A DNA stretch of 21,962 bases from a virus: IMG/VR virus record IMGVR_UViG_3300017782_000260, positions 1-21,962 of that record. One strand, written 5' to 3'. The notes under the pieces are model-generated. The model was given only the letters and a program-made list of their open reading frames with translations. It did no database searches and was not told the origin of the DNA. Both the position numbers and the translations under genes were made by a program. This document shows positions 12,918 through 20,291 of this stretch, in pieces; position 1 is the stretch's first letter; each line of letters begins with the position of its first letter.

Positions 12918-14665
12918 AGAGGTTCTTCCCCTTCAATAGGGGTCATAGCCTCTGCTTCTATACTCTCTTGCCCAGCGTTCATAAGACGCTGTGTATCCAT
13001 CTGCTCCATCAACCCTCTATTGTCACCATATAAATCGTAACGTTTGACATTAAGCAAATCTTCAAACAGCTTAGCAAGCTGCTTACCAGATATGTGTTGT
13101 TTAACATCGGGCCATACAGGGGTGTTGGCTAAGTTAATTAGGTTTTGCACCGTCTGTGCTTGCTGAGCAAAATGTCTAGCCCCAACAGGGCGTAGCTTAC
13201 CTTTAGCTGTAATGTCTTCTTTTGTAATAGACAAGAAGTCTGCAACACCTAAGTCGTCGTCCATAACGCGAATAACATCACCACCTGACATATTCCTAAC
13301 TGCCAACTCTAGCATGTTATTTAGCAAAGGCTCTAGCACATCTATCTCAAACTGTGTAACTTTCTCTTGAAAGATACGACCAGCAGCATTCTCTAAAGCA
13401 CCAACTTCAAACGCTGTTTTCTCGCCCGGAGTGCGAATACCCATAGCCTGTTTAGGTGCTCCAGCAGCCTCCTCCATCATATTCATCAGGAAGGCCATCT
13501 CAGCTTCTGCTGCTTGTAAGTTAACACCTGTGAATAGGGGAGCTACGTCTCCGTCTTCGTCCATCTGGAAGCGTGCAAATGGCCCCCACTGGCTGTCTTC
13601 TTGCAACTCTCCTCGCACCTTGAGTGGAGGCATAATAGTGAGGTCACGAGCATCTGCGGCAATGTTTTGCAAGTGGTCGAGTCGGTATTGCATCCCGACC
13701 AGATTATCAAGTGGACCCATGCCATAAAGATTATCAGGGCGCTTACGCCACGAAGTAAAAACTCTGTGTCCATTACGTTTCCATGCAGGGATTGGTGCTT
13801 TACGTAAAACTTTAGTTCTGTCTATAACAGTGACAATGTAGTCGTCTAGCATCTCCCCTGTATCAGGGTCATTAATAGTTCCAGTGAACTCTAGAATTTC
13901 CACAAACCCACTTTTTAGGTAAGTGTAGTAATCACCAAAACCATCTACACTATAACCTTCAGCTTTCTTAACATCATCCCTACTCCAATTAGTAAGATGT
14001 GATCTAGCGTTCTTAGCCTCGGCTAACGCCTTCTTGGCTGTCTCATCTCCAGTATCTTTATACTCTAACTCTAGGGTGCCGAAGTGTTTTATTGTACGGC
14101 TAATCTTCCAGCTATGTTCATAGGTTAATGCTGTGGGGTCAAACACTTCATCTAAAGGTGATCTTCTTATAGCTCGTGGTCCCACATATCCGGGGATAGA
14201 CTCTCCGCTATCGGGGTCTTGTTTTGTCTCATTAACCCAAACACAATCAGCAATAACAACACCATAATCAATGTAATCATAAAGAAGAGAGGAGATAACA
14301 CTACGCATATTATCTTCTCTAACTTTGTTAGACATATACGCTTGTATAGCTGACTTCTTTTCTTGAGTCTCGTCATCAATGCCATAACCTTCCCACTTAA
14401 GCCAATCATCATTAGGAAACAATGCAGAAATATAATTAGCATGTAGATTGTCACGTATTTGACAAATCTTTGGAATGGTCGTAGAATTACGCCACGGCAA
14501 GCTAGAATTACTAGTCTTGCTAGTATCTGTAGCAAAGACATAATTGCGAAGCTCTTGCTTCTCTGCTTCCCATGTATGTCTATTGCTTTTCTTTTCATCC
14601 CACTGCTCTACAATGAAAGATGCCAACCCTTCCATAGGGAAGTTGTCTAATTCTAATGTACTCAT
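12914..14665 (-). CDS. Portal (head-tail connector) protein
   Basis: This 583-residue protein follows the large terminase with a 4-base ATGA overlap, the standard portal position. Portal-like features include the N-terminal SSLPWRNSTTIPKICQIRDN, the mid-region RRSPLDEVFDPTA and WRKRPDNLYGMGPLDNLVGM, and the long C-terminal helices with MNMMEEAAGAPKQAMGIRTP and EKTAFEVGALENAAGRIFQE. The last stretch matches the conserved portal stem and crown region (GEKTA.E). Length fits the podovirus head-to-tail connector range. The portal forms the dodecameric ring through which DNA enters the head. The C-terminal tail is acidic and Met/Glu rich. Confidence is high from both motifs and context. Confidence 0.9.
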   Translation of the reverse strand: MSTLELDNFPMEGLASFIVEQWDEKKSNRHTWEAEKQELRNYVFATDTSKTSNSSLPWRNSTTIPKICQIRDNLHANYISALFPNDDWLKWEGYGIDDETQEKKSAIQAYMSNKVREDNMRSVISSLLYDYIDYGVVIADCVWVNETKQDPDSGESIPGYVGPRAIRRSPLDEVFDPTALTYEHSWKISRTIKHFGTLELEYKDTGDETAKKALAEAKNARSHLTNWSRDDVKKAEGYSVDGFGDYYTYLKSGFVEILEFTGTINDPDTGEMLDDYIVTVIDRTKVLRKAPIPAWKRNGHRVFTSWRKRPDNLYGMGPLDNLVGMQYRLDHLQNIAADARDLTIMPPLKVRGELQEDSQWGPFARFQMDEDGDVAPLFTGVNLQAAEAEMAFLMNMMEEAAGAPKQAMGIRTPGEKTAFEVGALENAAGRIFQEKVTQFEIDVLEPLLNNMLELAVRNMSGGDVIRVMDDDLGVADFLSITKEDITAKGKLRPVGARHFAQQAQTVQNLINLANTPVWPDVKQHISGKQLAKLFEDLLNVKRYDLYGDNRGLMEQMDTQRLMNAGQESIEAEAMTPIEGEEPL

Positions 14666-16185
14666 ACGTAAGCAATGCCACCAAAGCGTGAGTTAAAATT
14701 ATATTGCTGTTGTGTATCTCTGCCGTCTAGCTTTTGTTTTGGAGCTTTGGCAATCTCTACAGCAGATGCTAAACAATCTTTTAAGTCGTCGTGTGCTGGA
14801 CGAGCACGCAACAACTCTTCTTCTAATGCAGCAGTGTAACCACCTTTGTGGTGGTACATCTGTAGATTCTCATATCTAGGCTCTAAAACTGCAGCAATCC
14901 TTTCTTCTTTCTTCCCTTCGTGTCTATTAGGTCTGTGTTCATCAATCTTAATCATAGATCCGTTAGCTTTAAACCTATCTTTTAAATCTCTAACAATAAT
15001 CTGCTGAGCTACAGTTACTTCTGCTCGTAGTGTTTTAAATTCCCACTTCTGGTGCATACGCTCTATACGATTGTAATACTCTGCAATCTTATCGGTCTTA
15101 AACCGATCCATATCTAATACGTATACATCGTTAGATGTAGAGAGGCCAATAACAACTATAGCTGAATAGTCTGCATTCTTATTTAAAGAAAATGCAAAGT
15201 CTATTGCTGCATAGAGGTTTAACCTCTCATCTCCGTAATACCACTTTCCGTATGTTTGCTGTAGCTTACTTCTATCGAAGTATTGAAACCTGCTATTGTT
15301 CATTCTAGCAGATTCTGGGTCGTTGGGGTCGTTATAATACTGTGCGTAAAACTGTGTGCGGTCTGTATACTTAGCGCTAATCTTAGCTAGCTCTTGGCGA
15401 TTAAAGCCAAACAGCTTACCGTCTTTCCTTGCAGATCTAGGCCATAAAAACTTACCATCAACCTCTACAGCTTTTTCAAATATATCCCACAGATCTTCTT
15501 CACCAACAATATTATCCTTGTCATCAAACTGCGTAACAGTTTGCTCTTTCCATATACTGTATTGATCTGCTGGGTGGTAGCGTGTACCACAAGCTTTCTG
15601 TATACCGCCAGCATTAAGAATAGAGGCCATCTGAGACATTGCTGCAGACGTCTTACGTCTCCCTTCTTCTGTGTATGCGTTGTCTGGAACAACAACGTCA
15701 TCTGCCACTAAAACCTCACAATGCAGGCCAGTGGTGTTTGTTGTCAAACCAGCAGCAAAAACTGTAAAGTCCCTAATACCCTCTGCTTTACGTTTGGGGT
15801 GATCTACAGAGATGGCACCAGTTGTCCACTTCTCCCTCTTACCCTCTTCTTCATGAACCATCTCAGGCCAATAACGTTTATATATCTCACTGGTAAGAGT
15901 GTTCTTAATTGCGTATAGCTGCGCTTCTGCAAGCGTAGATGTAGCTGATAAATATAAGATGGAGGTGTCTGGATGCTTTGTTATCCACCAACAAGCCCAC
16001 ACTTCCATACAATGACTCTTCATGTGTGCTCGTGGTAGTAAGAGTAGTTGCTCTTGTTCGTTACACTCTAACCACTTAAAGACTTGCTTGTGTACATCTC
16101 CATAAACCCTTTCAGGGTGTACAAGCTTAGCGAATGCAAATAAACTACTTTCTGCTAACTCTCTAATCTCGTCTAGTTCATTCAT
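14662..16185 (-). CDS. terL: Terminase large subunit (packaging ATPase and nuclease)
   Basis: This 507-residue protein carries the expected two domains. The ATPase has a Walker-A-like PRAHMKS (51-57, with Lys56), a coupling motif SATST (80-84) and a Walker B EVLVADD (157-163). The nuclease has an RNase-H-like set: an Asp in AAIDFAF (329), an acidic residue in LRAEV (389) and Asp in DDLKDCLASAVE (466-470). It cuts genome concatemers and drives DNA into the prohead through the portal. Its ATG overlaps the stop of the small-subunit candidate, and its stop overlaps the portal ATG, both as ATGA. The length is typical for the family. This is the most certain functional call in the late region. Confidence 0.95.
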   Translation of the reverse strand: MNELDEIRELAESSLFAFAKLVHPERVYGDVHKQVFKWLECNEQEQLLLLPRAHMKSHCMEVWACWWITKHPDTSILYLSATSTLAEAQLYAIKNTLTSEIYKRYWPEMVHEEEGKREKWTTGAISVDHPKRKAEGIRDFTVFAAGLTTNTTGLHCEVLVADDVVVPDNAYTEEGRRKTSAAMSQMASILNAGGIQKACGTRYHPADQYSIWKEQTVTQFDDKDNIVGEEDLWDIFEKAVEVDGKFLWPRSARKDGKLFGFNRQELAKISAKYTDRTQFYAQYYNDPNDPESARMNNSRFQYFDRSKLQQTYGKWYYGDERLNLYAAIDFAFSLNKNADYSAIVVIGLSTSNDVYVLDMDRFKTDKIAEYYNRIERMHQKWEFKTLRAEVTVAQQIIVRDLKDRFKANGSMIKIDEHRPNRHEGKKEERIAAVLEPRYENLQMYHHKGGYTAALEEELLRARPAHDDLKDCLASAVEIAKAPKQKLDGRDTQQQYNFNSRFGGIAYV

Positions 16186-16718
16186 TCTTGAAGACGTCTT
16201 AAATCATCTTTAACCAAACTAACAACTTCTGCTTTCTTAGGCTTTCTGCCAGCCCTCTTGGGCTTGCCAACAGCATTCTTATCTAAATACCCTTTGTTAG
16301 CTAAATAGCTTAGCGTAGCCTGTGACGCCTCCCCTGCGTACATTTGGTCCAACATAACTTTAACAGCTTTAGCTTTTAAACGTTGTTGTAATTCATCTTT
16401 CATAGATTCGTATGCAGGTTTAAAGAATGCACACTCTTTTAGCTTTAGCCAATGTTGGTAGCAAGCAAAGTATTTGTTTGCAAATTCATATTCACTTACA
16501 TCTTCACACTCAACGTAAAGTTTGTGGATAGATGGATAGTGTTTACCATTCTTCTCTCTATCCCAAGGTTGCAAAGTGTACAAGGCATTCCTATCAGTTG
16601 CAGACTGATCTAAGAACAAACCATCAGTTAACCACTTAGTACCATTACCTTTAAATTTATCTCTTTGCAAAATATATCTCTGCATATAAGTGCATGGATG
16701 CACGTTAATGTCAACCAT
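16182..16718 (-). CDS. Putative terminase small subunit
   Basis: This is the first gene of the leftward operon: 178 residues, overlapping terL by 4 bases. The start of the protein (VDINVHPCTYMQRYILQRDK, then KWLTDGLFLDQS) is like proteins I recall preceding terL in marine podovirus-like phages. The middle is helical. The C-terminus is strongly basic (KPKRAGRKPKKAE), suited to DNA binding. Small terminase subunits recognise the packaging site. The call rests mainly on position and the basic tail. The ATG at 16716-16718 is the first possible common start after the in-frame stop at 16797-16799. It has no visible Shine-Dalgarno and is preceded by a hairpin only one base-pair step away. Confidence 0.65.
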   Translation of the reverse strand: MVDINVHPCTYMQRYILQRDKFKGNGTKWLTDGLFLDQSATDRNALYTLQPWDREKNGKHYPSIHKLYVECEDVSEYEFANKYFACYQHWLKLKECAFFKPAYESMKDELQQRLKAKAVKVMLDQMYAGEASQATLSYLANKGYLDKNAVGKPKRAGRKPKKAEVVSLVKDDLRRLQE

Positions 16719-16737
16719 CCAATGCTGGGAGCATTGG
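16719..16737 (-). repeat. Perfect hairpin abutting the small terminase start codon
   Basis: CCAATGCT-GGG-AGCATTGG has eight perfect pairs and a three-base loop. In the minus-strand RNA it ends immediately before the ATG at 16718-16716. It occupies the place where a Shine-Dalgarno would sit, and no purine-rich ribosome site is seen within about 25 bases upstream. It may hide or shape translation initiation, or bind a regulator. There is no U-tract, so it is not a terminator. Confidence 0.7.
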
Positions 16738-16751
16738 TGGGTGGGAATGTT

Positions 16752-16811
16752 ATGTCTTCGACAATGTTTAACTTCTTCCCTTAAGGGGAAGCAATATTAT
16801 GTCGAAGACAT
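16752..16811. repeat. Nested inverted repeat A
   Basis: Outer arms ATGTCTTCGACA (16752-16763) and TGTCGAAGACAT (16800-16811) are a perfect 12-base match. Between them lies an inner hairpin CTTCCC-TTAAG-GGGAAG (16775-16791). The element sits in the presumed late leader. It could fold as a long branched RNA hairpin, or serve as a two-half-site DNA operator. Confidence 0.7.
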
Positions 16812-16818
16812 TAGGGTT

Positions 16819-16855
16819 GGGAATATTCTATAGTCTTTTTAAAGACACAATTCCC
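16819..16855. repeat. Nested inverted repeat B
   Basis: Outer arms GGGAAT (16819-16824) and ATTCCC (16850-16855) flank an inner dyad GTCTTT-TT-AAAGAC (16833-16846). It lies 8 bases from repeat A and 16 from repeat C, and shares the same hairpin-inside-arms design. It is individually short, so the nested arrangement is the main reason to note it. Confidence 0.5.
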
Positions 16856-16870
16856 CCCTTCTGCAACACC

Positions 16871-16930
16871 GTTATAATCTAATCTCTCTAAGGAGAGATA
16901 AATAAATTAATCTCTTAATTAGATTATAAC
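16871..16930. repeat. Nested inverted repeat C with possible three-way junction
   Basis: Arms GTTATAATCTAAT (16871-16883) and ATTAGATTATAAC (16918-16930) match perfectly over 13 bases. Inside are two more hairpins: ATCTCTC-TAAG-GAGAGAT (16882-16899) and AATTAA-TCTC-TTAATT (16905-16920). Because these borrow a few bases from the arms, the best joint fold is a 10-pair outer stem carrying two tetraloop hairpins, a Y shape. Each arm contains a perfect TATAAT on opposite strands, so the element also spans promoter -10 sites. An ATATTTTTTT run follows on the plus strand. Confidence 0.7.
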
Positions 16931-16951
16931 ATATTTTTTTCCAAAAGTGTA
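16923..16951 (-). promoter_or_regulatory. Predicted late promoter, extended -10
   Basis: The minus strand reads TGTTATAAT, an extended -10 (TGN followed by a perfect TATAAT at 16928-16923). The -35 at the usual 17-base spacing, TACACT (16951-16946), is poor. Transcription would begin near 16916 and give a leader of about 200 bases before the terminase genes. A weak -35 with a dyad further upstream would fit an activated promoter. No start site is proven. Confidence 0.5.
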
Positions 16952-16965
16952 GTATTTTGAAGATT

Positions 16966-16985
16966 AAATTGTAACAAAATGTTAC
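16966..16985 (-). promoter_or_regulatory. GTAACA-N3-TGTTAC operator-like dyad upstream of the late promoter
   Basis: The minus strand reads GTAACATTTTGTTACAATTT. It contains the 15-base dyad GTAACA-N3-TGTTAC (16971-16985) and the motif TTACAATT (16974-16967). Its centre is about 62 bases upstream of the predicted late start. Nearly the same 20-base sequence recurs at 19441-19460. Confidence 0.5.
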
Positions 16986-17046
16986 TGCACTAAACTACGA
17001 TAATTTTATGAGAAATTTTTAAGTTGCAATGCATAATAAAAACTAA

Positions 17047-17070
17047 CCCCCATACCCCCCCTAGTACCCC
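17047..17070. repeat. C-tract cluster, possible G-quadruplex on the minus strand
   Basis: Three cytosine runs of 5, 7 and 4 bases are separated by ATA and TAGTA. On the minus strand this gives GGGG, a 5-base loop, seven G (enough for two GGG runs), a 3-base loop, then GGGGG. That satisfies the simple four-run G-quadruplex pattern. It stands out in an AT-rich region. Confidence 0.5.
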
Positions 17071-17227
17071 TGTTAGCATAGCTACGCATAACAATCAAAT
17101 AGTTTTTATTAATAACAATCCCCGCAACAATAGCTTTTAATTATTGGCACGATTCTTGTATGAAATTTTGTTGTATTAACACCCATCCATTCCCCGCACT
17201 TATTGCTGGCATACATATTGCTTTATA

Positions 17228-17265
17228 TTCAAATACTTAAAGTATAATTATTATTTATATTTGAA
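17228..17265. repeat. AT-rich dyad with inner palindrome
   Basis: Arms TTCAAATA (17228-17235) and TATTTGAA (17258-17265) enclose most of ATACTT-A-AAGTAT (17233-17245), which overlaps the left arm slightly. A TATAAT lies at 17243-17248, but no good -35 stands at the right distance. It could be an easily melted segment or a regulator site. Confidence 0.4.
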
Positions 17266-17322
17266 GGTGTAAGTATTGATTAGATGAATGTGTATTCAAT
17301 ATATTATTGGCATGGCTATTGC

Positions 17323-17344
17323 TACGCGCATGCGCGTGCACGCG
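17323..17344. repeat. Alternating purine-pyrimidine GC island with 14-base palindrome
   Basis: Twenty-two bases alternate strictly between pyrimidine and purine, mostly CG and CA/TG steps, a composition known to favour left-handed Z-DNA under supercoiling. It contains the perfect palindrome ACGCGCATGCGCGT (17324-17337). It lies about 60 bases upstream of the early promoter -35 and contrasts sharply with its AT-rich surroundings. Confidence 0.6.
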
Positions 17345-17366
17345 GTGAAGATAGTAGGTGTAGTGT

Positions 17367-17384
17367 TTACAATTCGTTACAATT
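17367..17384 (+). promoter_or_regulatory. TTACAATT direct repeat upstream of the early promoter
   Basis: TTACAATT occurs at 17367-17374 and again at 17377-17384, a 10-base period or about one helical turn, so both copies face the same side of the DNA. The centre is about 60 bases upstream of the predicted early start. The same octamer sits in the dyads at 16966-16985 and 19441-19460. Confidence 0.5.
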
Positions 17385-17400
17385 ATTTATTTCACAAGTG

Positions 17401-17428
17401 TTGAACTTGGGTTTGTGTTGTGTATAAT
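17401..17428 (+). promoter_or_regulatory. Predicted early promoter, sigma-70 type
   Basis: TTGAAC (17401-17406), a 16-base spacer and a perfect TATAAT (17423-17428) give a good sigma-70-like promoter. The predicted start near 17435 leaves a leader of about 29 bases before the first ATG. This would let host RNA polymerase begin early transcription. Confidence 0.7.
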
Positions 17429-17440
17429 TACAAACATCGA

Positions 17441-17455
17441 CAACAAACAAAGAGG
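17441..17455 (+). promoter_or_regulatory. Repeated A/C-rich translation leader, copy 1
   Basis: CAACAAACAAAGAGG precedes the first early gene. The A/C-rich stretch and the ribosome site are repeated before the next two genes. AGAGGTG at 17451-17457 is the Shine-Dalgarno for the ATG at 17464. A GTG at 17455 lies inside it and is therefore not the likely start. Confidence 0.6.
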
Positions 17456-17463
17456 TGAACACT

Positions 17464-17697
17464 ATGAAAGCTACAATAGAACATACAGATACTTTTGGGC
17501 ATGAGTTAAATTATTGTTGGGTGAATAGAGCGTCAATAGAATGCGACGGTTTAAGTGATTCACAGATAGTACGTAGACTAAAAAAAGCTATTGGGATAAA
17601 CGGCCTTAAGGCACGTAAGACTATAGATTGCGGTGACTATATACAATACAAATTAGATGGCCTATTCCAAGCGTTTATAATTACTTTTGAATATTAA
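17464..17697 (+). CDS. Conserved small early phage protein, 77 residues
   Basis: This is the first gene after the early promoter. The start is set at the ATG at 17464 because AGAGGTG sits 6 bases upstream, whereas an upstream in-frame GTG overlaps that site. The sequence (MKATIEHTDTFGHELNYCWV, later RRLKKAIGINGLKARK and GDYIQYKLDGLFQAFIITF) resembles a small family I recall in several phages, with a TDTFGGEANYSWV start and a C-terminal beta strand; no search was run. The function of that family is not known to me. A first-expressed small protein could act on host functions. Confidence 0.75.
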   Translation: MKATIEHTDTFGHELNYCWVNRASIECDGLSDSQIVRRLKKAIGINGLKARKTIDCGDYIQYKLDGLFQAFIITFEY

Positions 17698-19092: not shown

Positions 19093-19268
19093 ATGAATAT
19101 ATATGCAGTTACTCAGGTTTGAGTTGTAAGATAACAGCTAAATCACGATGGGAAGCGCGTTGTGTTATGCGTAACAAGATAGATGATGCGTTTAACGTTG
19201 AAGTGGATTTAAATAGTATTGTAATTGAGAAAATTAAAGAAACATTTTTGAAAGGGTGTGCAATATGA
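19089..19268 (+). CDS. Small early hypothetical protein, 59 residues
   Basis: The start is the ATG at 19089, which overlaps the DenV stop (ATGA) and follows GGAGAGGTGG. An in-frame GTG at 19080 lies in that ribosome site and is less likely. The sequence (MNEYICSYSGLSCKITAKSR, then WEARCVMRNK) has three Cys in its first 25 residues and a predicted strand-helix-strand layout. No family was recognised. Coupled translation with DenV does not by itself imply a repair role. Confidence 0.65.
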   Translation: MNEYICSYSGLSCKITAKSRWEARCVMRNKIDDAFNVEVDLNSIVIEKIKETFLKGCAI

Positions 19269-19444
19269 ATAGATATGAAATTGGTGTGGCTTTGGGCAGT
19301 TGGTTGGCTAGCAAGAGCGAGTTGATTGATAAGTGGGATGCGAGTGGCGATGAAGTTTTACACTATGATGTCAATGAAAACGTAGTTTTAATATGCATAT
19401 TAATTGCAGATCAAAGACCTAAGTTTATATTAAAAGAAAAGTAA
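19265..19444 (+). CDS. Small early hypothetical protein, 59 residues
   Basis: The ATG at 19265 overlaps the preceding TGA (ATGA) and has AAAGGG 8 bases upstream. An in-frame GTG at 19256 is less likely. The protein has an N-terminal helix (YEIGVALGSWLASKSELIDK) and a short hydrophobic strand (VVLICILIA) too brief for a confident membrane span. Its stop codon overlaps the operator-like dyad at 19441-19460, so the end of the gene and the next control site are merged. Function unknown. Confidence 0.65.
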   Translation: MNRYEIGVALGSWLASKSELIDKWDASGDEVLHYDVNENVVLICILIADQRPKFILKEK

Positions 19445-19460
19445 CAAACTGTTACAATTA
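19441..19460 (+). promoter_or_regulatory. GTAACA-N3-TGTTAC operator-like dyad upstream of primase
   Basis: GTAACAAACTGTTACAATTA contains the dyad GTAACA-N3-TGTTAC (19441-19455) and TTACAATT (19452-19459). It matches the element upstream of the late promoter at 16 of 20 positions, in the same orientation relative to its downstream gene. It begins the 139-base gap before the primase gene. Confidence 0.5.
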
Positions 19461-19477
19461 ATTGTTTTACTATGTTT

Positions 19478-19506
19478 TTAAAATATGCTATTATTATTTA
19501 TATATT
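19478..19506 (+). promoter_or_regulatory. Possible weak internal promoter for primase
   Basis: TATATT (19501-19506) matches five of six -10 positions, but the -35 at 17 bases (TTAAAA) is poor. The predicted start near 19513 puts the upstream dyad about 65 bases away, like the other two promoters. The stretch is so AT-rich that chance matches are easy. Confidence 0.25.
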
Positions 19507-19509
19507 ATA

Positions 19510-19531
19510 GCAACCTGCTTAAACAGGTTGC
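19510..19531 (+). repeat. Inverted repeat in the primase leader, first
   Basis: GCAACCTG-CTTAAA-CAGGTTGC has eight perfect pairs. The loop contains TTAA, so as DNA it is a 22-base near-palindrome with one mismatched pair. It is followed by ATATATATAAC rather than a U-tract, so a strong terminator is unlikely. An operator or leader hairpin is more likely. Confidence 0.6.
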
Positions 19532-19540
19532 ATATATATA

Positions 19541-19563
19541 ACAAAAGCTTTTAAAGCTTTTGT
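19541..19563 (+). repeat. Perfect 23-base palindrome in the primase leader, second
   Basis: ACAAAAGCTTT-T-AAAGCTTTTGT has 11-base arms around one central base. It ends 7 bases before the primase ribosome site (AAGGA). It may be a DNA operator or an RNA hairpin that influences translation of primase. Confidence 0.65.
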
Positions 19564-19583: not shown

Positions 19584-20291
19584 ATGTTACTAAACACTAT
19601 ACTCCATTCTTTGCAAGAAGGAGTTACTAGACACGTATGCCCTTCTTGTGAAGGGGGTAGTAAGAACGAAAAGAGTTTGGTTTGCACTAAAGAAGGGCGG
19701 CGCATTAGGTGGTTTTGTCATCGCGCAAGCTGTGGGTATCGTGGATCGTCTGTATTATCTGGCGGTAAGCTTTGGGCAGAAACAACATCGGAATCCGATG
19801 ATAGTTTGTTTAATGATAGCTTGTTATCCGGCAATACATACACACTGAACACGGCAGGGAGAGAGAGGAGGGAGGTTAGGGATCACAAGGGGGCGGTACG
19901 TGGTGCAGTGTATCGCAAGCCAAAGGGATTGAATATTGTAGGGCCAAAGGATTTAAATGACATTGACAAGAATTGGTGTAAACTGCACTTTCCGTCTCCG
20001 TTAACAAGCGACAGCTTAATCTTAGTTGAGGACATACCCAGTGCCGAGAAGATGGATAAGCACTATCCTACTGTGAGTTTGCTCGGCGTTAACTTAAACG
20101 AAGCTAAGTTAAACTTATTGCTAGACAACGGCGTTAAACGTGTAATAATTGCACTGGACAATGACGCAACGCGGTTTGCACTCAGAATTGCAAAGAAATA
20201 TATGATTGAAACCACCGTCTTACCGCTTGAGCGGGATTTAAAAGACGAAACAAACGAAAGATTGATAAAGATTGCACAAGATATTAGATAG
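19584..20291 (+). CDS. Short DNA primase, zinc finger plus TOPRIM
   Basis: The ATG at 19584 has AAGGA 8 bases upstream. A longer in-frame TTG start at 19560 would lie in the palindrome and is rejected. The 235-residue protein starts with a zinc-ribbon (Cys19, Cys22, Cys45, Cys50), like the T7 gp4 primase finger. A TOPRIM domain follows: Glu149 in LILVEDIPSAEK and the DxD Asp192/Asp194 in VIIALDNDAT. It would make RNA primers for lagging-strand synthesis. There is no helicase domain, unlike T7 gp4, so a separate helicase is expected outside this window. It has its own control region, with two inverted repeats and an operator-like dyad. Confidence 0.88.
   Translation: MLLNTILHSLQEGVTRHVCPSCEGGSKNEKSLVCTKEGRRIRWFCHRASCGYRGSSVLSGGKLWAETTSESDDSLFNDSLLSGNTYTLNTAGRERREVRDHKGAVRGAVYRKPKGLNIVGPKDLNDIDKNWCKLHFPSPLTSDSLILVEDIPSAEKMDKHYPTVSLLGVNLNEAKLNLLLDNGVKRVIIALDNDATRFALRIAKKYMIETTVLPLERDLKDETNERLIKIAQDIR

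Follow-up and report, generated by a model that had tools for sequence, protein, structure and literature searches.

A predicted leftward late promoter with a hairpin-rich leader at a composite dyad in the control region of a Zobellviridae-type podovirus

The dyad at 16871-16930 of the DNA analyzed here (the window, a virus contig of 21,962 bases) most likely sits on the late-operon promoter of a Zobellviridae-type podovirus, P_L, from which transcription would start leftward and pass at once into a leader made of hairpins, a reading to which we assign a probability of about three in four. The large terminase of the window is 63-64% identical to those of ICP2-like Vibrio phages (Zobellviridae), and the dyad falls inside a noncoding stretch (16719-17463) that separates a leftward late operon, with PHROG matches to terL, connector and major head protein, from rightward small early genes leading to the primase; the gene at 3977-4720 matches a PHROG family without a function and is named by position only. 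In the mechanism we propose, the minus strand of the dyad's right arm would offer the host sigma70 polymerase an extended -10 element of the TRTG type with a weak -35, and a protein bound to a GTnACAA-type site upstream would probably help or gate P_L. Transcription would begin near 16916, as predicted from the -10 and thus within the dyad, and proceed leftward into terS and the late genes. The inner hairpin with the CUUA loop would be the first of a structured array in an untranslated leader, which most likely shields the long RNA from Rho or RNases or else binds a factor. Of the two arms only the left would be transcribed, the right being part of the promoter, so that the late transcript could not form the full three-way junction, although DNA could. 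The sequences themselves show that the -10 is conserved in some relatives and which way it points, that the closest relatives have hairpin arrays, and that an operator, an extended -10 and a CUUAA hairpin recur together before the primase gene; the start site of P_L, the binding of a protein and the function of the leader are what we infer from these patterns, whose coordinates are collected in Table 1.

Table 1. Positions in the window of the predicted promoters, operator-like sites, repeats, hairpins and neighboring genes.
Feature	Position	Strand	Remarks
Large terminase (terL)	14662-16185	-	PHROG match
Putative small terminase (terS)	16182-16718	-	opens the late operon; matches phrog_8035, of unknown function; named for its place ahead of the large terminase
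Predicted hairpin-rich 5' leader of the late (terS) transcript	16719-16916	-	198 nt; -65.7 kcal/mol, z -6.7
GGGnGGG-(dyad)-GGGnnGGG module	16739-16822	+	G-quadruplex-prone flanks; recurs with unrelated but complementary arms
Second composite dyad	16752-16811	.	perfect 12-bp arms around CTTCCC-CTTAA-GGGAAG (minus strand)
Dyad left arm GTTATAATCTAAT	16871-16883	+	rightward TATAAT at 16873-16878, judged non-functional as a promoter
First leader hairpin	16882-16899	-	ATCTCTC-CTTA-GAGAGAT on the transcript strand
Inner hairpin 2	16905-16920		AATTAA-tctc-TTAATT; 3 nt in common with the right arm; overlaps the predicted P_L start site
Dyad right arm ATTAGATTATAAC	16918-16930	-	overlaps the P_L -10
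P_L, putative TRTG-extended -10 element AAAATATGTTATAAT	16923-16937	-	TATAAT at 16923-16928; predicted start ~16916
Operator-like dyad GTAACAAAATGTTAC	16971-16985	.	upstream of P_L
C-rich box, predicted left edge of the direct terminal repeat	17023-17070	+	cut site estimated at 17023-17030
Three sigma54-type -24/-12 sites	17145-17323	+	at 17145, 17207 and 17308; facing the early genes
Related operator-like site TTTACAATTCGTTAC	17366-17380	+	looser form, upstream of early promoter P_E
P_E, putative sigma70-type early promoter	17401-17428	+	TTGAAC-16-TATAAT
Second module copy	19441-19563	+	operator GTAACAAACTGTTAC, AAAATATGCTATTAT (19480-19494), hairpins 19510-19531 and 19541-19563; before the primase gene

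The structure of the dyad is as the original prediction had described it. The two arms form a perfect 13-bp inverted repeat, 34 nt apart, that carries TATAAT on opposite strands, and the two hairpins said to lie between them are present, the first being ATCTCTC-taag-GAGAGAT (16882-16899, plus strand); the predicted fold of the single-stranded DNA is the three-way junction (-12.5 kcal/mol, z -5.2), equaled by 0 of 200 shuffles. Perfect repeats of at least 13 bp with a gap of at most 60 arose in 4 of 2000 shuffles of the noncoding region, and in shuffles of the whole window (200 of them) the expected number is about 0.01, so that a 13-bp dyad is well beyond chance. At a threshold of at least 11 bp and the same gap the window holds four perfect repeats, three of them in the noncoding region and the fourth a short way ahead of the primase gene. 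The TATAAT hexamer is not enriched (17 observed in the window versus 17.8 expected), and its presence on both strands of the dyad follows from the symmetry of an inverted repeat, which copies the TATAAT of one arm automatically. A search of viral_contigs with exact 11-nt cores found the arm pair only in contig L001, which is 99.85% identical to the window over 9.1 kb, and in eight relatives the longest perfect repeat covering the leftward -10 measures 0-8 bp, compared with the window's 13 bp. Only in this virus and its near-identical contig was the dyad found at the promoter. Rfam covariance models gave no match, either at the gathering cut-off over the whole window or at E up to 5 over 16650-17470.

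What recurs among relatives is the promoter element. On the minus strand of the right arm, TGTTATAAT has TGn directly before TATAAT, making it an extended -10 of the sigma70 type that faces left, in agreement with the direction originally proposed; P_L escaped a simple sigma70 scan on account of its poor -35. In the 450 nt to the left of the C-rich box (for L017, left of the contig end), the exact leftward TGNTATAAT was found in 11 of 26 sequences, the window included, versus 1 of 26 for the rightward form. The longer P_L motif AAAATATGTTATAAT is matched at 14-15 of 15 positions in L017, L019/L127, L020/L110, L046/L124, L120 and L131, and the variant of L018 is missing the TG. The exact leftward extended -10 is absent from the zone in 15 of the 26 sequences, among them ICP2, CVT22, T5S1 and GX1, in which tail or uncharacterized genes stand between the noncoding region and terS. 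Downstream of P_L, terS was located by tblastn in L120, L131, L147 and L036 (L147 has the same terS match as L131) and by position in L017-L020 and L046. Complete promoters also occur in relatives, as TTGACA-17-TATAAT in L120 and TTGACA-18-TATAAT in L036. By these comparisons, conservation within the group is partial for the leftward -10 and lacking for the dyad.

Searched for with no more than one mismatch, the right-arm motif of the minus strand, AAARTRTGNTATAAT, was matched 13 times, in 10 of 11 records that had been selected in part for a motif already seen in them, and a reversed-pattern control gave 0. Eight of the 13 lie at the P_L position, two of these in near-duplicate records. The five matches elsewhere comprise one in the primase-side module (L001), two in the record of L120, one of which is a rightward promoter beside P_L, one in L036, which is an A/T-rich neighbor, and one in L072, which overlaps a terminase match and is probably due to chance. 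In L120, at 14004-14097 (G007 47406-47499), two extended -10 promoters with TTGACA -35 elements stand back to back and point apart, plausibly a divergent pair, unlike the arrangement in the window.

The sequences compared differ in their distance from the window, with terminase identities of 71-76% for L017, L018, L019, L020 and L046, 64% for L036, 51% for L147 and 47% for L120. Pattern matching gave 41 loci, of which 19 were kept in addition to the window and 22 were dropped by eye for unrelated flanks, duplication or too little left flank (L114, L139); the near-duplicates L110/L141 and L111/L130 were retained in this set, and L131/L147 is a further near-duplicate pair among the sequences compared. 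Through terS, 14 relatives were found and the upstream DNA of 10 was compared, in which the control region was present only in L001 and the others were unlike it by eye. A DNA search of the region against cultured phages placed the best 20 of 84 matches all in the terminase, and a primase query returned only the near-identical contig from viral_contigs and nothing from genome_contigs. A hairpin immediately precedes the first ATG of terS, for which no ribosome-binding site is evident (16696-16718); its PHROG match begins at residue 18, so the true start may lie further in.

Upstream of P_L, the candidate protein site also recurs, although not at a fixed place. The pattern GTWACAAWNTGTWAC is matched, at one mismatch or none, by just two stretches of the window, 16971-16985 and 19441-19455, versus 0.08 matches expected, and 0 of 100 shuffles had as many; the second stretch overlaps the stop codon of the preceding ORF (19256-19444). 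In five relatives (L017, L018/L121, L019/L127, L020/L110 and L046/L124) a TTGT-N6-TTGTNA tandem ends 29-30 nt upstream of the leftward TATAAT, and this tandem is missing upstream of that hexamer in the window, L131, L120 and L036. The window operator lies near -62 versus -48 for the tandem of the five relatives, about 14 nt farther from the start. The TTGTAA/GTAAC tandem may resemble OmpR or CpxR boxes. The second of the two operator-like places opens a further copy of the module, in the orientation opposite to that of P_L, in which the operator is followed by AAAATATGCTATTAT, by GCAACCTG-CTTAAA-CAGGTTGC, by a second hairpin and by the primase gene, whose likely start is the ATG at 19584, after AAGGAA. 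The CTTAA(A) loop lies on the plus strand at the primase module and on the minus strand at P_L, which is the transcript strand in both cases, and this is the best argument that the hairpins act in RNA.

The number of hairpins behind P_L is high in most of its closer relatives. Perfect hairpins with a stem of at least 6 between P_L and terS number 4 in the window, 8 in L017, 10 in L018, 4 in L019, 9 in L020 and 5 in L046, against shuffle means of 0.47-0.92; L036 has 3 against a shuffle mean of 2.18 and thus no excess. L120 and L131 have one hairpin each in 412 nt, so that in these two and in L036 P_L is kept without the array. Loops of the form CTTA, CTTAA or CTTAAA on the late strand account for 12 of 43, and the reverse form for 2 of 43; when stems of at least 7 bp are taken from seven records and the window, 11 CTTA-type loops are on the transcript strand and 2 of 13 on the wrong one. 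The predicted folds are strong on both strands, with z between -5.9 and -11.1 except in L036 (-0.1, -1.8), and z is stronger on the plus strand in L017, L019 and L020. Folding energy as a test of the strand was rejected, both strands being about equally structured.

The G-flanked module, with perfect arms of 9-13 bp around an inner hairpin, was seen in the window, L017, L018, L019, L020 and L141, and a similar form was seen by eye in L046. A script that scanned 1.45 Mb returned the known members and one likely chance site (L098), and because it was written after the members had been seen, this recovery is no independent test. At the right end of VpV262 (L188 1025-1474), seven hairpins with stems of 6-7 lie in the 450-nt flank on the left side of the right terminal repeat; the same flank has two in RIO-1 and none in ICBM1, with no CTTA-type loop in any of the three (counts without shuffle control).

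Several of these features would also suit a structure that works at the level of DNA, in which the terminase or replication proteins would make use of the repeats and G-rich modules on DNA that is single-stranded or supercoiled. The region adjoins the predicted edge of the terminal repeat, composite dyads recur with arms that are unrelated and yet perfectly complementary, the two strands are about equal in how well they fold, and the G-flanked module of L018 and L046 stands upstream of P_L, outside its transcript. The hairpins of VpV262, in a flank where the P_L motif is missing, point the same way, but their loops are not of the CTTA type and their count, made without shuffle control, drops to two in RIO-1 and none in ICBM1. 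The orientation of the loops also argues against a DNA-level role, since in the window promoters of either orientation are followed by CTTAA-loop hairpins whose loop is on the transcript strand; we regard such a role as unlikely.

Somewhat less probable still is that the long hairpin, with ATATTTTTTT (16931-16940) behind it, forms an intrinsic terminator of rightward read-through that keeps antisense transcription out of the early region. Seven consecutive T do follow the hairpin on the plus strand, and the plus-strand RNA fold has a z of -5.4; however, the site was not listed by a terminator scan, the stem consists mostly of A-T pairs where a terminator would have a G+C-rich stem, and the late genes to the left of the hairpin read leftward. 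On the opposite strand, moreover, the T run is the A tract that belongs to the conserved promoter motif, and it comes to only 3-4 T in the dyad-less L110, L120, L124 and L127.

The compact two-way switch of the original prediction, in which a cruciform or a regulator would cover the -10 elements of both strands and toggle both promoters together, has very little probability left, for although the dyad is far beyond chance, one DNA strand folds as a three-way junction and both arms hold TATAAT, the rightward TATAAT is without a TG and has a -35 of 3/6 at best, the doubling of the hexamer is automatic in any inverted repeat, and the lack of conservation of the dyad, which is missing in the eight relatives with the leftward -10 and matched in the viral collection (exact 11-nt cores) only by the near-identical contig, leaves the switch unsupported. 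A lack of conservation among relatives, which had been named as grounds for refutation, thus holds for the dyad but not for the leftward -10. The earlier interpretation was half right and is partly supported, in that there is one leftward promoter, partly conserved, and no symmetrical switch. N4-type hairpin promoters were also considered and were provisionally set aside.

The late promoter P_L would lie close to one end of the genome. The C-rich box proper (17028-17070), with TAATTTTATGAGAAATTTTTAAGTTGC just before it, follows a pattern that occurs exactly once in each of 22 records, all of them selected for holding it, and 0 times with the reversed control. By eye, the annotated terminal repeats of ICBM1 and RIO-1 begin with the corresponding C-rich stretch after a similar flank, and the window shares with them both the C-rich start and the A/T-rich, TGAGAAATTTTTAAG-like flank; VpV262, also by eye, has the flank in common but its terminal repeat begins differently. 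The direct terminal repeats of ICBM1-3 are 159-173 bp long, and cobaviral terminal repeats have a conserved G+C-rich 5' end, as reported in PMC6775973. The C-rich box is probably the terminase cut site, and its resemblance to the repeat starts of ICBM1 and RIO-1 suggests that the window probably contains the point at which the two ends of the genome meet; the early promoters would then lie at the left end, and P_L near the right one. A perfect 12-bp inverted repeat, TAATAAAAACTA / TAGTTTTTATTA, surrounds the C-rich stretch at 17034-17111.

On the early side of this junction lie the three sigma54-type sites. The sigma54 consensus is TGGCAYG-N4-TTGCW, and the sites have GG-N10-GC within it, except that one of the three in the window has GT instead of GC; 0 of 2000 shuffles reach three. 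Across 25 control regions (L110, L112 and L141 were left out, their right flank being too short), the early strand carried 26 sites and the opposite strand 7, where 1.4 would be expected for each, and at least one early-strand site was present in 13 of the 25; the same count found none in ICP2, CVT22, T5S1, RIO-1 and ICBM1. In whole records, exact TGGCAYGNNNNNTGCW gave 14 matches in 8 of 16 and the reversed control 0, and 13 of the 14 fall within about 550 bases of the C-rich box, four of them in VpV262 (L183) at 173-325. Only close matches are telling, since a search that tolerated one mismatch, in 15 records overlapping with these 16, gave 10 matches for the real pattern and 6 for the control; the four exact ones are all in control regions. 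Sites of this type, often in tandem, were also seen beyond the terminal-repeat edge, directed at the early genes, in VpV262, L125, L137, L140, L121, L127, L036 and GX1.

Tentatively, and with more doubt than confidence, we suggest that one divergent control region across the terminal-repeat junction may run the whole phage. At one end of the genome the early genes would be expressed from tandem host sigma54 promoters, perhaps through an envelope-stress activator triggered by infection, and at the other the late genes from the extended -10 gated by a protein on the GTnACAA-type operator, with the clade-specific array of CUUAA-loop hairpins as a cis element on the late RNA. In place of a speculative two-way switch, the analysis as a whole offers a testable map of where late and early genes start in a little-studied group of marine phages.

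A literature search, conducted mostly at the level of listings, found no published description of these promoters, though one may exist in the genome papers of VpV262 and RIO-1, and the nearest parallels come from other phages. TRTG-extended -10 sigma70 promoters include phage promoters that are assisted by an activator, such as the T4 middle promoters with MotA. Like these, P_L has TGnTATAAT with TRTG, a weak -35 and a conserved sequence resembling a protein site upstream; unlike the MotA box, which is at -30, the sequence here lies near -48 in five relatives, where it is a TTGTAA-type tandem, and near -62 in the window, where it reads GTAACAAAATGTTAC. The put RNA antiterminators of HK022 are likewise phage leader hairpins, and both systems open a phage transcript, presumably read by the host polymerase, with stem-loops whose loops are related. 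The leaders described here differ from put in having 4-10 hairpins, many with CUUA(A) loops, and stem sequences that are not conserved.

Within the family, the box at 17023-17070 resembles the starts of the ICBM1 and RIO-1 repeats and so agrees with the terminal repeats reported for Zobellviridae and cobaviruses (PMC6775973), whose account, in its accessible text, mentions neither sigma54 sites nor a hairpin array nor a late promoter; the word "promoter" occurs 0 times in the accessible text of that paper and of PMC9960094. The use of sigma54 by phages is described as rare but not unprecedented in PMC5053324, according to which phage YuA of Pseudomonas aeruginosa is strictly dependent on the sigma54 of its host. 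The window resembles YuA in having sigma54-type sites, here before early genes, and differs from it in that the candidate sites stand in tandem behind the edge of a terminal repeat in part of one podovirus group. If the sites are used as proposed, some Zobellviridae would be lytic phages whose early expression is driven by sigma54, and given the rarity of sigma54 use among phages (PMC5053324), a group with tandem sites behind its terminal repeat would matter for phage biology and for host range.
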